From the NCBI RefSeq assembly GCF_014595885.1, contig NZ_JABUKC010000002.1, positions 558,001-622,000 on the forward strand: a stretch of DNA of 64,000 nt, in the 5' to 3' direction. Position 1 is the stretch's first letter. Each line of letters begins with the position of its first letter. The position numbers were made by a program, and so were the translations under genes. Below, piece by piece: positions 47,749-52,530 of this stretch. The notes under the pieces are model-generated. The model searched no databases and was not told where the DNA came from. It saw nothing but the letters and a program-made list of their open reading frames with translations. This DNA is from Microcella alkalica. Its GTDB lineage: Bacteria; Actinomycetota; Actinomycetes; Actinomycetales; Microbacteriaceae.

Positions 47749-49239
47749 CTAGGTGCGGCTGTGCCGCTCGCGCACCGCCTCCTGGAAGCGACGGCCGCGG
47801 TCGGCGTAGTCGGTGAACTGGTCCATGGATGCGGCCGCAGGAGCCAGGAGCACGGTGTCGCCATCGAGCGCCACGGCTGCCGCCTGCTCGACGGCCGCCC
47901 GCATCACCTGCCCAGTGTCGTCGGCGGCGACCTCGAAGACGGGGAGCCCCGGCGCGTGTCGCTCGAACGCCGCGACGACCGCCGCCCGCTCGACGCCGAT
48001 CACGACGGCCGCCCGCAGCCGCGCGCGGTGCGCCTCGACGAGCGCGTCGAGCTCGACGCCCTTCAGGAGGCCGCCGACGATCCACACGATCGAGCGGAAG
48101 GCGCTCAGCGCCGAGTTCGCGGCGTGCGGGTTCGTCGCCTTCGAGTCGTCGACCCACATGACGCCGCCGGCCTCGAGCACAATCTCGGTGCGGTGGTGGT
48201 CGACGCGGAAGCGGCGCAGGCCGTCGCGGACCGCGAGGGGCGAGGCGCCCGCCGCGCGCGCGAGCGCCGCCGCCGCGAGCGCGTTCGCGAGACCGTGCGG
48301 CGTCGCGAGCCCCGCGAGGCGCACGTCGTCGAGGGTGCCGAGCTCGAGCGCGGAGCGATGGCGGTCGTCGAGGAAGGCGCGGTCGACGAGGATGTCGTCG
48401 ACGAGCCCCACATCGCTCGGGCCCGGCGTGTCGGCCCCAAAGCCGATCGCGCGGGCGCCGTCGTGCACGTCGGCCTCCTCGACCATGCGCATCGTCGCGT
48501 CGTCGGCGCGGTTGTAGACGCACGCGAAGCGCGTGTTCGCGTACACCTTCGCCTTCGCGTCGCGGTACGCCTGCGCGCCGCCGTGCCAGTCGTAGTGATC
48601 CTCCGCGAGGTTGAGGCAGACGCTCGCGAGCGGGTGCAGCGCGCCGGGGCCCTCCGTCGGCAGCTGGTGCAGCTGGAAGCTCGAGATCTCGACCACGAGC
48701 ACGTCGAAGCCGGCCGGATCGCGCACCGCGTCGAGCACGGGCACGCCGATGTTGCCGCACGGGGCGACGCGCAGCCCCCCCTCCTGCAGCATCGCCGCCG
48801 TCAGCTGGGTCGTCGTGGTCTTGCCGTTCGTGCCCGTGATGAGCACCCACTCGGCGGCCGGCTCGACCTTGTCGCGCACGCGCCAGGCGAGCTCGATGTC
48901 ACCCCACATCGGCAGCGCGCGGTCGGCGGCCCACCCCACGATCGGATGATCGGGGCGGAACCCGGGCGAGACGATGACGAGCTCGGGCTCGAGGGCGGCG
49001 AGCTGCGGCAGAGCATCCTCATCGGAGCCCTCGAGCTCGATCAGGTCGACGCCGATGACCGGCAGGATGCGCGCGCGATCGGCGTCGGGGTTGCGTGCGG
49101 CGACCGTGACGCGGCAGCCGAGCTCGGCGAGCGTGTCGGCGGCCGCGAAGCCCGTCACGCCGAGCCCCAGCACGAGCACGCGCAGGCCCGACCAGTCGGC
49201 GCGCCAGCTCGTCAGCCCGTCGAGCCGGCTCGGCGTCAC
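47749..49239 (-). CDS. murD: UDP-N-acetylmuramoylalanine--D-glutamate ligase
   Basis: 496 aa. [21 protein letters not shown] begins the UDP-binding domain; the P-loop is [49 protein letters not shown] and [16 protein letters not shown] (catalytic region of domain 3) are intact. Adds D-Glu to UDP-MurNAc-L-Ala. The GTG start at 49239 overlaps the mraY stop (four bases). Slightly longer than the average MurD. Confidence 0.97.
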
Positions 49240-50333
49240 TGGCTGACCCACTCGAGGTAGAACAGCCCGACGCCCACGGCGACGAAGAGGCCCGCGATGA
49301 GCCAGAAGCGCACGACGACCGTGACCTCGGCCCAGCCCTTGAGCTCGAAGTGGTGGTGCAGCGGGCTCATGAGGAAGATGCGCTTGCCCTTGGTGATCTT
49401 GAAGTACAGCCGCTGCACGATGACCGAGCCCGTCACGATGAGGAAGAGCCCGCCGATGAGCACGAGCAGCAGCTCGGTGCGCGTCACGATCGCGAGGCCC
49501 GCGATCGCGCCGCCGATGCCGAGCGAGCCGGTGTCGCCGAGGAAGATCTGGGCGGGCGAGGTGTTCCACCACAGGAACCCGATGAGGGCGGCCGCGATCG
49601 CCGCCGACACGACGGCGATGTCGAGCGAATCGCCGCGCACCTCGTAGCACTTGTACGCCAGCTCGGGGTCGAGGTTCGGGTTGAAGCAGTTCTGGTTGAA
49701 CTGCCAGAAGGCGATGATGATGTACGACGCGATCGCGAGGATCGCCGAGCCCGTCGCGAGGCCGTCGAGGCCGTCGGCGACGTTCACGGCGTTCGAGGTG
49801 CTGACGACGATGAGGTTGATCCAGACCACGAACAGCACGATGCCGACGGCGCCGAGCGCGGCGAAGTCGAGCCAGTCGATGTCGCGCACGCCCGACACCA
49901 TCGTCGAGGCGGGCGTCTGGCCGTCGGCGTCGGGGAACGAGATCGCGAGGATGGCGAAGCCGGAGGCGACGATCACCTGCCCGGCGACCTTCGCCCAGCC
50001 GGTCAGGCCGAGGCTGCGCTGATTGCGCACCTTCATGAAGTCGTCGATGAAGCCGACGACGCCGAGCCCGACCATGAGCAGCAGCACGAGCATCGCCGAC
50101 TGCGTCGGCGCGGTCTGGTCGACGAGGTGGCCGAAGAAGTAGCCGAGGGTCGCACCGGCGATGACGACGATGCCGCCCATCGTGGGCGTGCCGCGCTTGG
50201 TGTGGTGCGTCTGCGGGCCGTCGTCGCGGATGAACTGGCCCCACTCCAGGCGCCGGAAGAGGCGGATGAACAGCGGCGTCAGCAGGAGGGTGAAGGCGAG
50301 CGCGAAGGCGCCGGACAGCAGCAGGGCTCTCAT
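49236..50333 (-). CDS. mraY: Phospho-N-acetylmuramoyl-pentapeptide transferase
   Basis: 365 aa polytopic membrane enzyme with about ten helices. [23 protein letters not shown] near the N-terminus, [18 protein letters not shown] with catalytic aspartates, [21 protein letters not shown], and the late His motif [17 protein letters not shown] are all diagnostic. It makes lipid I. ATG 50333 overlaps the stop of the short murF-like gene (four bases). Confidence 0.98.
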
Positions 50334-50980
50334 GCCGTCTCCTCCGTCAGGCGGTCGATCAGGGGTGCCAGGGGCGTGACGCCCGCGGCGGTCACGAGCA
50401 CCGCATCCCCCGGGCGGAGCCGGGCGCGAAGCTCATCGTAGGCGGCGTCGAGGTCGTCGACGAGCAGCGACTCCCCGCTCCACGAGCCCTCGAGCCCAGC
50501 CGCGGTGGCCGTGTGGCGGGCGCCGTGGCCGACCACGACGAGCTGCGAGATGTCGAGGCGCACGACGAGCCGGCCGAGCTGGTCGTGGTCGTCGAACCAC
50601 GACGTCGGCTCGCTCACGAGCTCGCCGACGACCGCGAACGAGCGCGTGACGCCCCGCGTCGCGTCCGCGAGCACCTTGAGCGAGCGACGCACCTCGTCGG
50701 CGGTCGTCGCGCCGGTGTCGTCGAGCACGATGAGGCCGTCGGCGGTGCGGATGCGCGCGCAGCGGCCCGGGACCTCCGCGGTCTGCCCCGCCGCGGTCGC
50801 GGCCTCGGCGAGACTCGCGCCGCGCGCGAGCGCCTCTCGCACTCGCGCCAGCGCCGCGTCGACGACGGCGTCGCCGAGCGCGTCGAGCGTCACGGTCGCG
50901 CGCTCCTGGGCGCACCGGAGGTGGATGCGGGCGCCGTCGAGCCGGTGCTCGAGGTCGTCGATGACGAGCGGCTCGCTCAT
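50330..50980 (-). CDS. Half-length MurF-like protein (probable pseudoenzyme) in the murF position
   Basis: 216 aa, against about 450-500 aa for MurF. It aligns only with the last part of the MurF middle domain and with domain 3: [75 protein letters not shown]. Absent are the UDP-tripeptide-binding domain and the GKT ATP loop. The remaining key motifs are changed: the usual G-x-H-N-V-x-N-A is [10 protein letters not shown]-x-Y-N-A-N-P is [12 protein letters not shown], and the late K-x-S/G is TAAG. The frame is intact, its ATG overlaps the murE stop (ATGA) and its stop overlaps mraY, so no sequence is missing by frameshift. It may be a structural or regulatory relic of MurF; the catalytic MurF must be encoded elsewhere. 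Identity as MurF-derived is by position and alignment by eye. Confidence 0.75.
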
Positions 50981-52530
50981 CGCGTCGGCCAGCCGGCCTC
51001 GCGCAGCGCCGCGCGCGCCTCGTCGCGCGCCGAGTACTCGGTGCGCACGCCGCGGATGTCGCGGTAGTCCTGGTGCCCCGGCCCGGCCCACAGGATCGAG
51101 TCGCCCTCCTGCGCGAGGTTCACGGCCACGCGGATCGCCGCCTCCGGCGGGCTCACCTCGTGGATCTCCGGCCGGTTGGTCGCCATCGCGGCGCCCTCGA
51201 GCAGGGTCGCGCGGATGGACGCCGGGTCTTCGAAGCGCGGGTGGTGGTCGGTGATGACGAGCACGTCGCAGCCCTCGGCGGCGACCCGGCCCATGTCGTG
51301 CCGCTTCGTCGCGTCACGGTCGCCGTCGGCGCCGAACACCATGATGGTGCGGCCCGTCGTGAAGGCGCGCACGGCGCCGAGGGTCTGCTCGAAGGCGTCG
51401 GGGCTATGGCCGAAGTCGACGAAGACGCTCGGCCCCCGGTCGCCGGAGACGCGCTCGGTGCGGCCGGGCAGGTAGGCGTCGATGCCGGTCTCGCCGAGCG
51501 CCTGCTCGATCACGGCGAGCTCGAAGCCGGCCTCGACCATCATGACGATCGCGAGCGCGGCGTTGGAGGCCATGTGCCAGCCGATGAGCGGCACGCGCGT
51601 GGTGAGCGACTGACCGTCGGGGCCGGTGAGGCGGAACGCCGTGAACGCTGGGGTCTCCTCCGTCAGCTCCACGCGCCACTCGGCCTCGACGCCGGGCTTC
51701 GCCGTGATCGTCGTCACCGGGATGCGCGCCGACTCGACGACGCGCTCGCCCCAAGCCGTGTCGAGCGACACGACGCCGCGGCGCGCGCGGTCGGGCTGGA
51801 ACAGCGGCAGCTTCGCCTGGAAGTACTCCTCCATGTCGGCGTAGTCGTCGAGGTGGTCGTGGCTGAGGTTGGTGAAGCCCGCGACGTCGAAGACGATGCC
51901 GTCGACGCGGTGCCGGCTGAGCGCCTGCGCGCTGACCTCCACGGCGACGGCGCGCACACCGGCCTCGCGCATGCGCGCGAGCAGGGCGTGCATCTCGCTC
52001 GCCTCCGGAGTTGTGAGGCGGCTCACGACGGTGAGGTCGCCGATCTTGCGCTCGGCCGTGGACGACAGGCCCGTGACGAGCCCGAGCTGGCGCAGCACCG
52101 CGTCGAGCAGGTAGGCGGTCGAGGTCTTGCCGTTGGTGCCGGTGACGCCGAACAGAAGCGGGGGCTCCTCGTCGGTGCGGTACACCCACGCCGAGAGCGC
52201 GCCGAGGGCGGCCCGCGGATCGTCGACGACGAGCACGGGCACGCCAAGGCCCGCCGCGAGCTCGACGCCAGCGCGGTCGGTGACCACGGCGACGGCCCCC
52301 GCCTCGACCGCGGCGGCCGCGAACTCGGCACCGTGCCGGTGCTGCCCGCGCACCCCCACGTAGAGGTCGCCCGGCCGGAGGTCACCCGTGGCGAGCGTGA
52401 TGCCGGTGACCTCGACGCCGTCGACGCGACCATGCGCGGCCTCGAGCCCGAACGCCTCGACGAGCCCGCCCAGCGGGCGCGCGGAGGGGTGCTCGGGCCG
52501 CAGGACGGGGGGAACGCGACCGGACAACAC
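50977..52530 (-). CDS. murE: UDP-N-acetylmuramoyl-tripeptide synthetase
   Basis: 517 aa (526 if GTG 52557 is used). It adds the position-3 diamino acid to UDP-MurNAc-L-Ala-D-Glu. ITLATGDLRPGDLYVGVRG in the UDP domain, P-loop FGVTGTNGKTSTAYLLDAVL, FTNLSHDHLDDYADMEEYF (central motif), and FVDFGHSPDAFEQTLGAV in domain 3. The amino-acid specificity motif, DNPR in meso-diaminopimelate enzymes, reads HHPR here (TDHHPRFEDPAS), pointing to another residue, which would fit the B-type peptidoglycan of Microbacteriaceae. The start is uncertain: GTG 52530 or GTG 52557, the latter overlapping the ftsI stop. Confidence 0.94.
   Translation of the reverse strand: MLSGRVPPVLRPEHPSARPLGGLVEAFGLEAAHGRVDGVEVTGITLATGDLRPGDLYVGVRGQHRHGAEFAAAAVEAGAVAVVTDRAGVELAAGLGVPVLVVDDPRAALGALSAWVYRTDEEPPLLFGVTGTNGKTSTAYLLDAVLRQLGLVTGLSSTAERKIGDLTVVSRLTTPEASEMHALLARMREAGVRAVAVEVSAQALSRHRVDGIVFDVAGFTNLSHDHLDDYADMEEYFQAKLPLFQPDRARRGVVSLDTAWGERVVESARIPVTTITAKPGVEAEWRVELTEETPAFTAFRLTGPDGQSLTTRVPLIGWHMASNAALAIVMMVEAGFELAVIEQALGETGIDAYLPGRTERVSGDRGPSVFVDFGHSPDAFEQTLGAVRAFTTGRTIMVFGADGDRDATKRHDMGRVAAEGCDVLVITDHHPRFEDPASIRATLLEGAAMATNRPEIHEVSPPEAAIRVAVNLAQEGDSILWAGPGHQDYRDIRGVRTEYSARDEARAALREAGWPTR

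Follow-up and report, generated by a model that had tools for sequence, protein, structure and literature searches.

In the 64,000-nucleotide stretch of Microcella alkalica DNA analysed here (the window), the murF position between murE and mraY in the dcw cluster was found to be occupied by a 216-aa gene that corresponds to the C-terminal part of MurF and overlaps each of its neighbours by four bases. In all likelihood this short murF has been retained as a selected, non-catalytic protein (probability about 0.85). With a slightly better than even chance, its role would be docking to a partner of an assembly formed by MurE, MraY and the divisome, catalysis having been taken over by a second MurF-like protein, here termed MurF2.

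The short murF (murF-C; 50330..50980, minus strand, 216 aa plus stop) is flanked by murE (50977..52515, minus strand, with a putative start codon) and by mraY (49236..50333, minus strand), and both the arrangement and the restriction to the C-terminal part of MurF were seen again as an earlier note on this DNA had described them. Residues 1-71 (50768..50980, minus strand) are what is left of the final part of the MurF central domain, with three strands and two helices in the structural model, and residues 72-216 (50333..50767, minus strand) make up the C-terminal domain (Mur_ligase_C). Against the MurF model TIGR01143 the protein scored 58.5 bits over positions 223-407, which is below the curated cut-off of 288.6 bits, and it matched PF02875 (Mur ligase C-terminal domain) with more than 28.4 bits and has the Mur C-domain fold. 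Compared with full-length MurF, the UDP-MurNAc-tripeptide:D-Ala-D-Ala ligase (e.g. 1gg4 from E. coli), the fragment has neither an N-terminal domain nor that half of the central domain which carries the P-loop, and YNxNP and VKSS are missing too. The absence of the ATP loop and of the UDP-MurNAc-tripeptide domain, as claimed previously, was confirmed by motif and domain scans: the P-loop G-x-x-G-K-S/T and the substrate loop D-x-Y-N-x-N-P are missing, and PF01225, the N-terminal UDP-MurNAc-tripeptide domain, had no match in this protein or in seven other scanned short proteins and was found in the full-length control (L119). The degenerate places of D-x-Y-N-x-N-P and VKSS are located at residues 87-97 (50690..50722, minus strand) and at residues 197-200, which read TAAG (50381..50392, minus strand); in the model, strands 84-88 and 193-197 precede these catalytic places. 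The structure was predicted with confidence (pLDDT 94.5) and its fold is that of MurF, as determined with VIA-align 2 on the ranked chains of Foldseek, so that the objection of a missing Mur ligase fold fails. The EGSWxxES loop (EGSWSGES, residues 164-171; 50468..50491, minus strand) joins helix 152-163 to strand 170-174 and, judged from the strand topology, probably lies away from the active site.

DAP-adding MurE enzymes carry D-N-P-R at a motif for which the MurE of the window reads T-D-H-H-P-R. The same reading was seen in most family members examined, and T-D-D-D-P-R in Pontimonas and its kin; T-D-H-H-P-R may be connected with the diamino acids other than DAP that occur in this family. 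A link between the fragment and T-D-H-H-P-R was ruled out, since most relatives with full-length MurF carry this motif too.

A candidate for the MurF encoded elsewhere, which the earlier note had envisaged, was found in the same genome (99.99% complete), where no MurF exceeds the cut-off and one strong partial match (C4:99337-100338) falls within MurF2 (L008:7263-9023, G000:C4:99265-100851, minus strand). This 529-aa protein scored 179.2 bits against TIGR01143 (model positions 63-388), under the cut-off, and is the sole MurF-like protein of the genome with an intact catalytic core, GSYGKTST and DTYNSNP being present. Four hydrophobic segments lie ahead of the P-loop (Kyte-Doolittle), and the Pfam scan returned Mur_ligase_M (98.1 bits), Mur_ligase_C (38.1 bits) and a sub-threshold YqgF, with no match to PF01225 or DUF1727. 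The search of the genome for a MurF with P-loop and NANP motif and for a Ddl-MurF pair, as the earlier note had proposed, thereby yielded a motif-complete protein adjoining ddl, with an alpha/beta hydrolase gene on its other side. The same cassette, with the hydrolase before and ddl after MurF2 on the same strand, was present in 58 of the 63 MurF2 loci examined, a set that forms part of 80 loci and in which some loci occur twice; the exceptions are L098, L141, L156, L160 and L161, several of which are cut short. The MurF2 loci span records of Microbacteriaceae, where gpsA mostly lies ahead of the cassette, Nocardioides, Acidimicrobiia, Chloroflexi, Porphyromonadaceae and Poribacteria. In a Poribacteria MAG (L237:2589-6534, in murE-forward orientation) the hydrolase-MurF2-Ddl cassette sits between murE and mraY, that is, in the murF slot. 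From the motifs, the Ddl neighbour, the absence of any other MurF and this murF-slot position we infer that MurF2 would be the active MurF. A loss of pentapeptide synthesis, with no other MurF in the genome, was not supported, as MurF2 is present.

MurT of MurT-GatD is a Mur ligase that has no N-terminal UDP-sugar domain of the usual kind, and its C-terminal domain is DUF1727. MurF2 resembles MurT in the lack of that N-terminal domain but differs from it in having Mur_ligase_C, no DUF1727 match, N-terminal hydrophobic segments and Ddl as neighbour. MurT chains matched a canonical MurF weakly; the MurF2 profile had no MurT match.

In the family survey MurF2 was called at E <= 1e-60 and was detected in 37 of 398 Microbacteriaceae genomes, from 7 of 78 genera; for the survey of full-length MurF, 398 genomes were drawn with the same settings, and 357 had a MurF over the cut-off. 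No full-length MurF was seen in 36 of the 37 MurF2 genomes. The only genome in both lists, G137, has its full-length MurF apparently outside the dcw cluster (C1:1908347-1909621) and a dcw copy of 219 aa. The dcw murF was read in all 37 MurF2 genomes and was short in each of them (G719, G725 and G728 through their counterparts G336, G339 and G333, which share the match coordinates). Among the murE-mraY junctions of MurF2 genomes, all 20 that were readable, including that of the window, held a short gene (gaps of 421-1010 bp, ORFs of 142-337 aa), the 21st (G024) being unreadable at a contig end; the 20 controls without MurF2 all held a full-length murF (gaps of 1390-1438 bp, ORFs of 465-481 aa). 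Overlaps of about four bases on both sides of murF were present at nearly every junction. Two further loci, L239 and L240, come from genomes already represented by L027 and L031. Five genomes of the family showed neither MurF2 nor MurF at these thresholds, among them G131, in which a full-length MurF (352.3 bits) appeared once the pieces were summed, and G712, which carries a 312-aa short murF (L250, G712:C96) with the P-loop-like GSVGKSTT and in whose assembly, only 90% complete, no MurF2 was found. As a separate observation, a canonical full-length MurF of G097 (C37:13873-15117) apparently lies outside the dcw cluster, and two copies over the cut-off were present in this genome.

The same short gene was looked for in relatives, as the earlier note had suggested, and in those of the genus murF was found to be short and not full length. 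The short protein was matched in 23 of the 24 other genomes of the genus (worst E-value 3.2e-34), the contig of the 24th (G024) stopping right after murE; these genomes together with related genera rule out an assembly deletion or sequencing error. The short murF proteins have graded lengths from about 140 to 337 aa. The 301-337-aa forms still show a recognisable start of the central domain but have lost the P-loop; in G110 a reading by eye gave VVGTVGRSSTSAML where relatives show a GSNGKTTT loop, and G712 is the only short form retaining a P-loop. The 210-220-aa forms, including that of the window, consist of the end of the central domain followed by the C-domain, and the forms of about 140-177 aa comprise mainly the C-domain. 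A 154-aa form, with a start codon picked by script, was present in G018 (L033) of the window's own genus.

Outside the family, in Actinotalea lenta and G571, the domain forms the C-terminal tail of MurE (L223:925-2955 with EGSWDAES and L246:509-2692 with EGSWGEES, respectively), which overlaps mraY by four bases, and the G571 fusion contains two Mur_ligase_C stretches according to Pfam. These fusions resemble the bifunctional MurE-MurF fusion of Bordetella pertussis, described in the accessible part of PMC6420597, in that MurE and a MurF domain are physically joined. They differ from it in that the B. pertussis protein combines two active enzymes, whereas here a non-catalytic MurF C-domain alone is attached to MurE or encoded as a separate gene.

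The comparison of motifs drew on 50 short proteins: 24 came from the window's genus, 17 from further dcw loci and 4 and 5 from later loci. Duplicates of three genus genomes were removed, and L232 (EGSWGGES) was not included. EGSWxxES was present in all 50 short and all 20 full-length proteins and in none of 17 MurF2 proteins. The P-loop was found in one short protein (G712), in 20/20 full-length MurFs and in 17/17 MurF2s, Y-N-x-N/S-P in 0/50, 20/20 and 17/17, and VK[SGA]S in 4/50, 20/20 and 0/17, respectively. Ten residues (G119, G136, R141, G151, E164, G165, S166, W167, E170 and S171 in window numbering) do not vary in either of the two sets compared, one of 26 short or fused proteins and one of 20 full-length ones. 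EGSW or EGSY was also seen in all six full-length MurFs examined from other families of the order. The surface that the fragment retains thus goes back to an older feature of actinobacteria and did not arise with the fragment.

The pooled Nei-Gojobori dN/dS of six close genus pairs was 0.25 for the whole short murF, with 0.31 for residues 1-72 and 0.19 for residues 73-216; mraY (0.06) and the murE part (0.10) were both lower. Nonsynonymous changes in the C-domain were below the neutral expectation (binomial p 3e-21). The ratios of single pairs ranged from 0.09 to 0.44 in the five closest and reached 0.85 in more distant ones, in which dS is apparently saturated. The constraint on the short murF is thus real but weaker than that on murE and mraY. 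In 20 short genes the third codon positions of the EGSWxxES motif vary (for the first E, GAG in 10 and GAA in 10). It is hence the protein on which selection is acting, and this variation at synonymous sites gave no support to the idea that the conservation stems from a DNA or RNA element within the gene. The views of the earlier note that the gene is not a product of recent decay and that it encodes a retained non-catalytic protein are both borne out by the genus-wide presence, the purifying selection and the invariant non-catalytic motif.

In eleven MurF2 loci of other lineages no murF remnant was found between murE and mraY, and neither EGSW nor EGSY occurred in any frame. The murE-mraY gaps were 122 and 138 bp in two Nocardioides, 139 in a Propionibacteriaceae MAG, 102 in a Porphyromonadaceae MAG, 37 in an Acidimicrobiia MAG, -7 and -1 in the actinobacterial MAGs L229 and L236, and -4 in three g101 genomes, which belong to the order of the window's organism; a gap of 190 in a Modestobacter MAG holds a 65-aa ORF without visible resemblance. 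L238, with no mraY match, stands outside this count. These loci show that the C-domain is not generally needed beside MurF2: the fragment matters in Microbacteriaceae, is fused in two other genomes and is dispensable elsewhere.

In a tree of MurE, MraY and MurD from 44 loci the MurF2/short state needs six changes, of which five are forced by starred branches. In the C-domain tree the short proteins group in two changes, but they are long-branched. The topology tests on the C-domain, run after removal of eight rows with long branches and of the catalytic columns, gave a p-AU of 0.711 for all short proteins in one clade and of 0.342 for G138 beside its full-length relative G076. Since the locus tree needs six changes and the tests reject neither a single nor a local origin, replicated truncation is likely, though not proven. 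In the MurF2 tree (27 rows, without g101 and G571) the MurF2s of the family group with Actinotalea, and G165, which belongs to g90 by genus, falls inside an unresolved cluster with g50 MurF2s, a placement that would fit a transfer of MurF2 inside the family.

Taken as a whole, graded lengths of about 140-337 aa, relaxed selection that is worst in residues 1-72 and the complete loss in other MurF2 lineages are what would be expected if a functionless fragment had been disappearing slowly since the takeover by MurF2, the N-terminal half first and then the rest. Such slow decay is nevertheless improbable, given that EGSWxxES persists in 50/50 short proteins despite identities to the window protein that drop to 25% in one alignment, that the C-domain dN/dS is 0.19, that the overlaps on both sides are maintained at nearly every junction and that the fold is predicted with confidence. 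About as improbable is a role in which the fragment, as a MurF2 subunit or regulator, would bind MurF2 or Ddl and bring MurF2 to the MurE-MraY site. The fragment does accompany MurF2 within the family, EGSWxxES is missing from MurF2, and in the accessible part of PMC3605390 MurF was the one Mur ligase of M. tuberculosis to which DdlA bound; however, MurF2 occurs without the fragment in other phyla and in g101, and in the incomplete assembly of G712 a short murF was found without any MurF2.

The invariant surface of the fragment suggests a second, non-enzymatic job of MurF. Under the favoured docking interpretation, the ancestral MurF would have combined catalysis with docking; the former would have passed to MurF2, and the fragment would have been kept for the latter, via its EGSWxxES/AYD face. 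The first candidate partner would be MurE, because of the MurE fusions in A. lenta and G571, followed by MraY and the division proteins encoded in the dcw cluster. That the fragment is a scaffold or partner of MurE/MraY had been proposed in the earlier note as well, and the fusion of MurE to the MurF C-domain in these two genomes outside the family is the only direct hint at it. In the accessible parts of two studies, MurF was found with MraY in a two-hybrid assay in C. crescentus and the MurE-MurF fusion with MurG (PMC6420597), and the Mur ligases of M. tuberculosis bound FtsZ, FtsW, FtsQ, Wag31 and a SepF orthologue, with no Mur-Mur interaction seen (PMC3605390). MraY, MurG, these division proteins and DdlA would thereby be candidate partners as well. 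Against docking, EGSWxxES could instead be needed for the fold of the C-domain, the short murF evolves faster than murE and mraY, other lineages with MurF2 do without the domain, M. tuberculosis showed no Mur-Mur contacts, and the short form of G712 stands in a genome in which no MurF2 was found.

A further version, in which both the jobs were split and the order of the pathway was changed, is held to be quite unlikely: the sugar-nucleotide domain of MurF2 would have been replaced by membrane helices, MurF2 would work at the membrane, where the acceptor of D-Ala-D-Ala might be a lipid-linked tripeptide, and the fragment would hand UDP-MurNAc-tripeptide from MurE to MraY. Least likely of all is a translational relay, in which the gene would serve only to be read through, linking the expression of mraY to that of murE, and its product would be inert; overlaps of about four bases at nearly every junction agree with it, but the direct murE-mraY overlaps in the three g101 genomes and the MAGs L229 and L236 mean that no relay gene is needed, the synonymous sites of the motif vary and its residues do not, and the fragment is part of MurE in two genomes.

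It is known that an enzyme, once replaced, can leave a pseudoenzyme behind. In a literature search outside which most subscription journals lay, no description was found of a Mur-ligase pseudoenzyme left after replacement, of a truncated dcw MurF in Microbacteriaceae or of a membrane-anchored MurF without the usual substrate domain, and the word MurF does not occur in the main text of the Pontimonas salivibrio genome paper (PMC6106888), as far as that text was available. The present results point to a widespread membrane-anchored MurF of this type. MurF is usually treated as an enzyme and drug target; with the enzyme removed by evolution and a second surface left, the family would offer a natural separation-of-function experiment. 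Reports on an assembly of Mur ligases conflict, the accessible parts of PMC6420597 speaking for it and those of PMC3605390 against Mur-Mur contacts in M. tuberculosis. The fragment with its EGSWxxES loop may serve as a small, testable handle on the question of whether the cell-wall machinery of the cytoplasm depends on Mur ligases for its cohesion.
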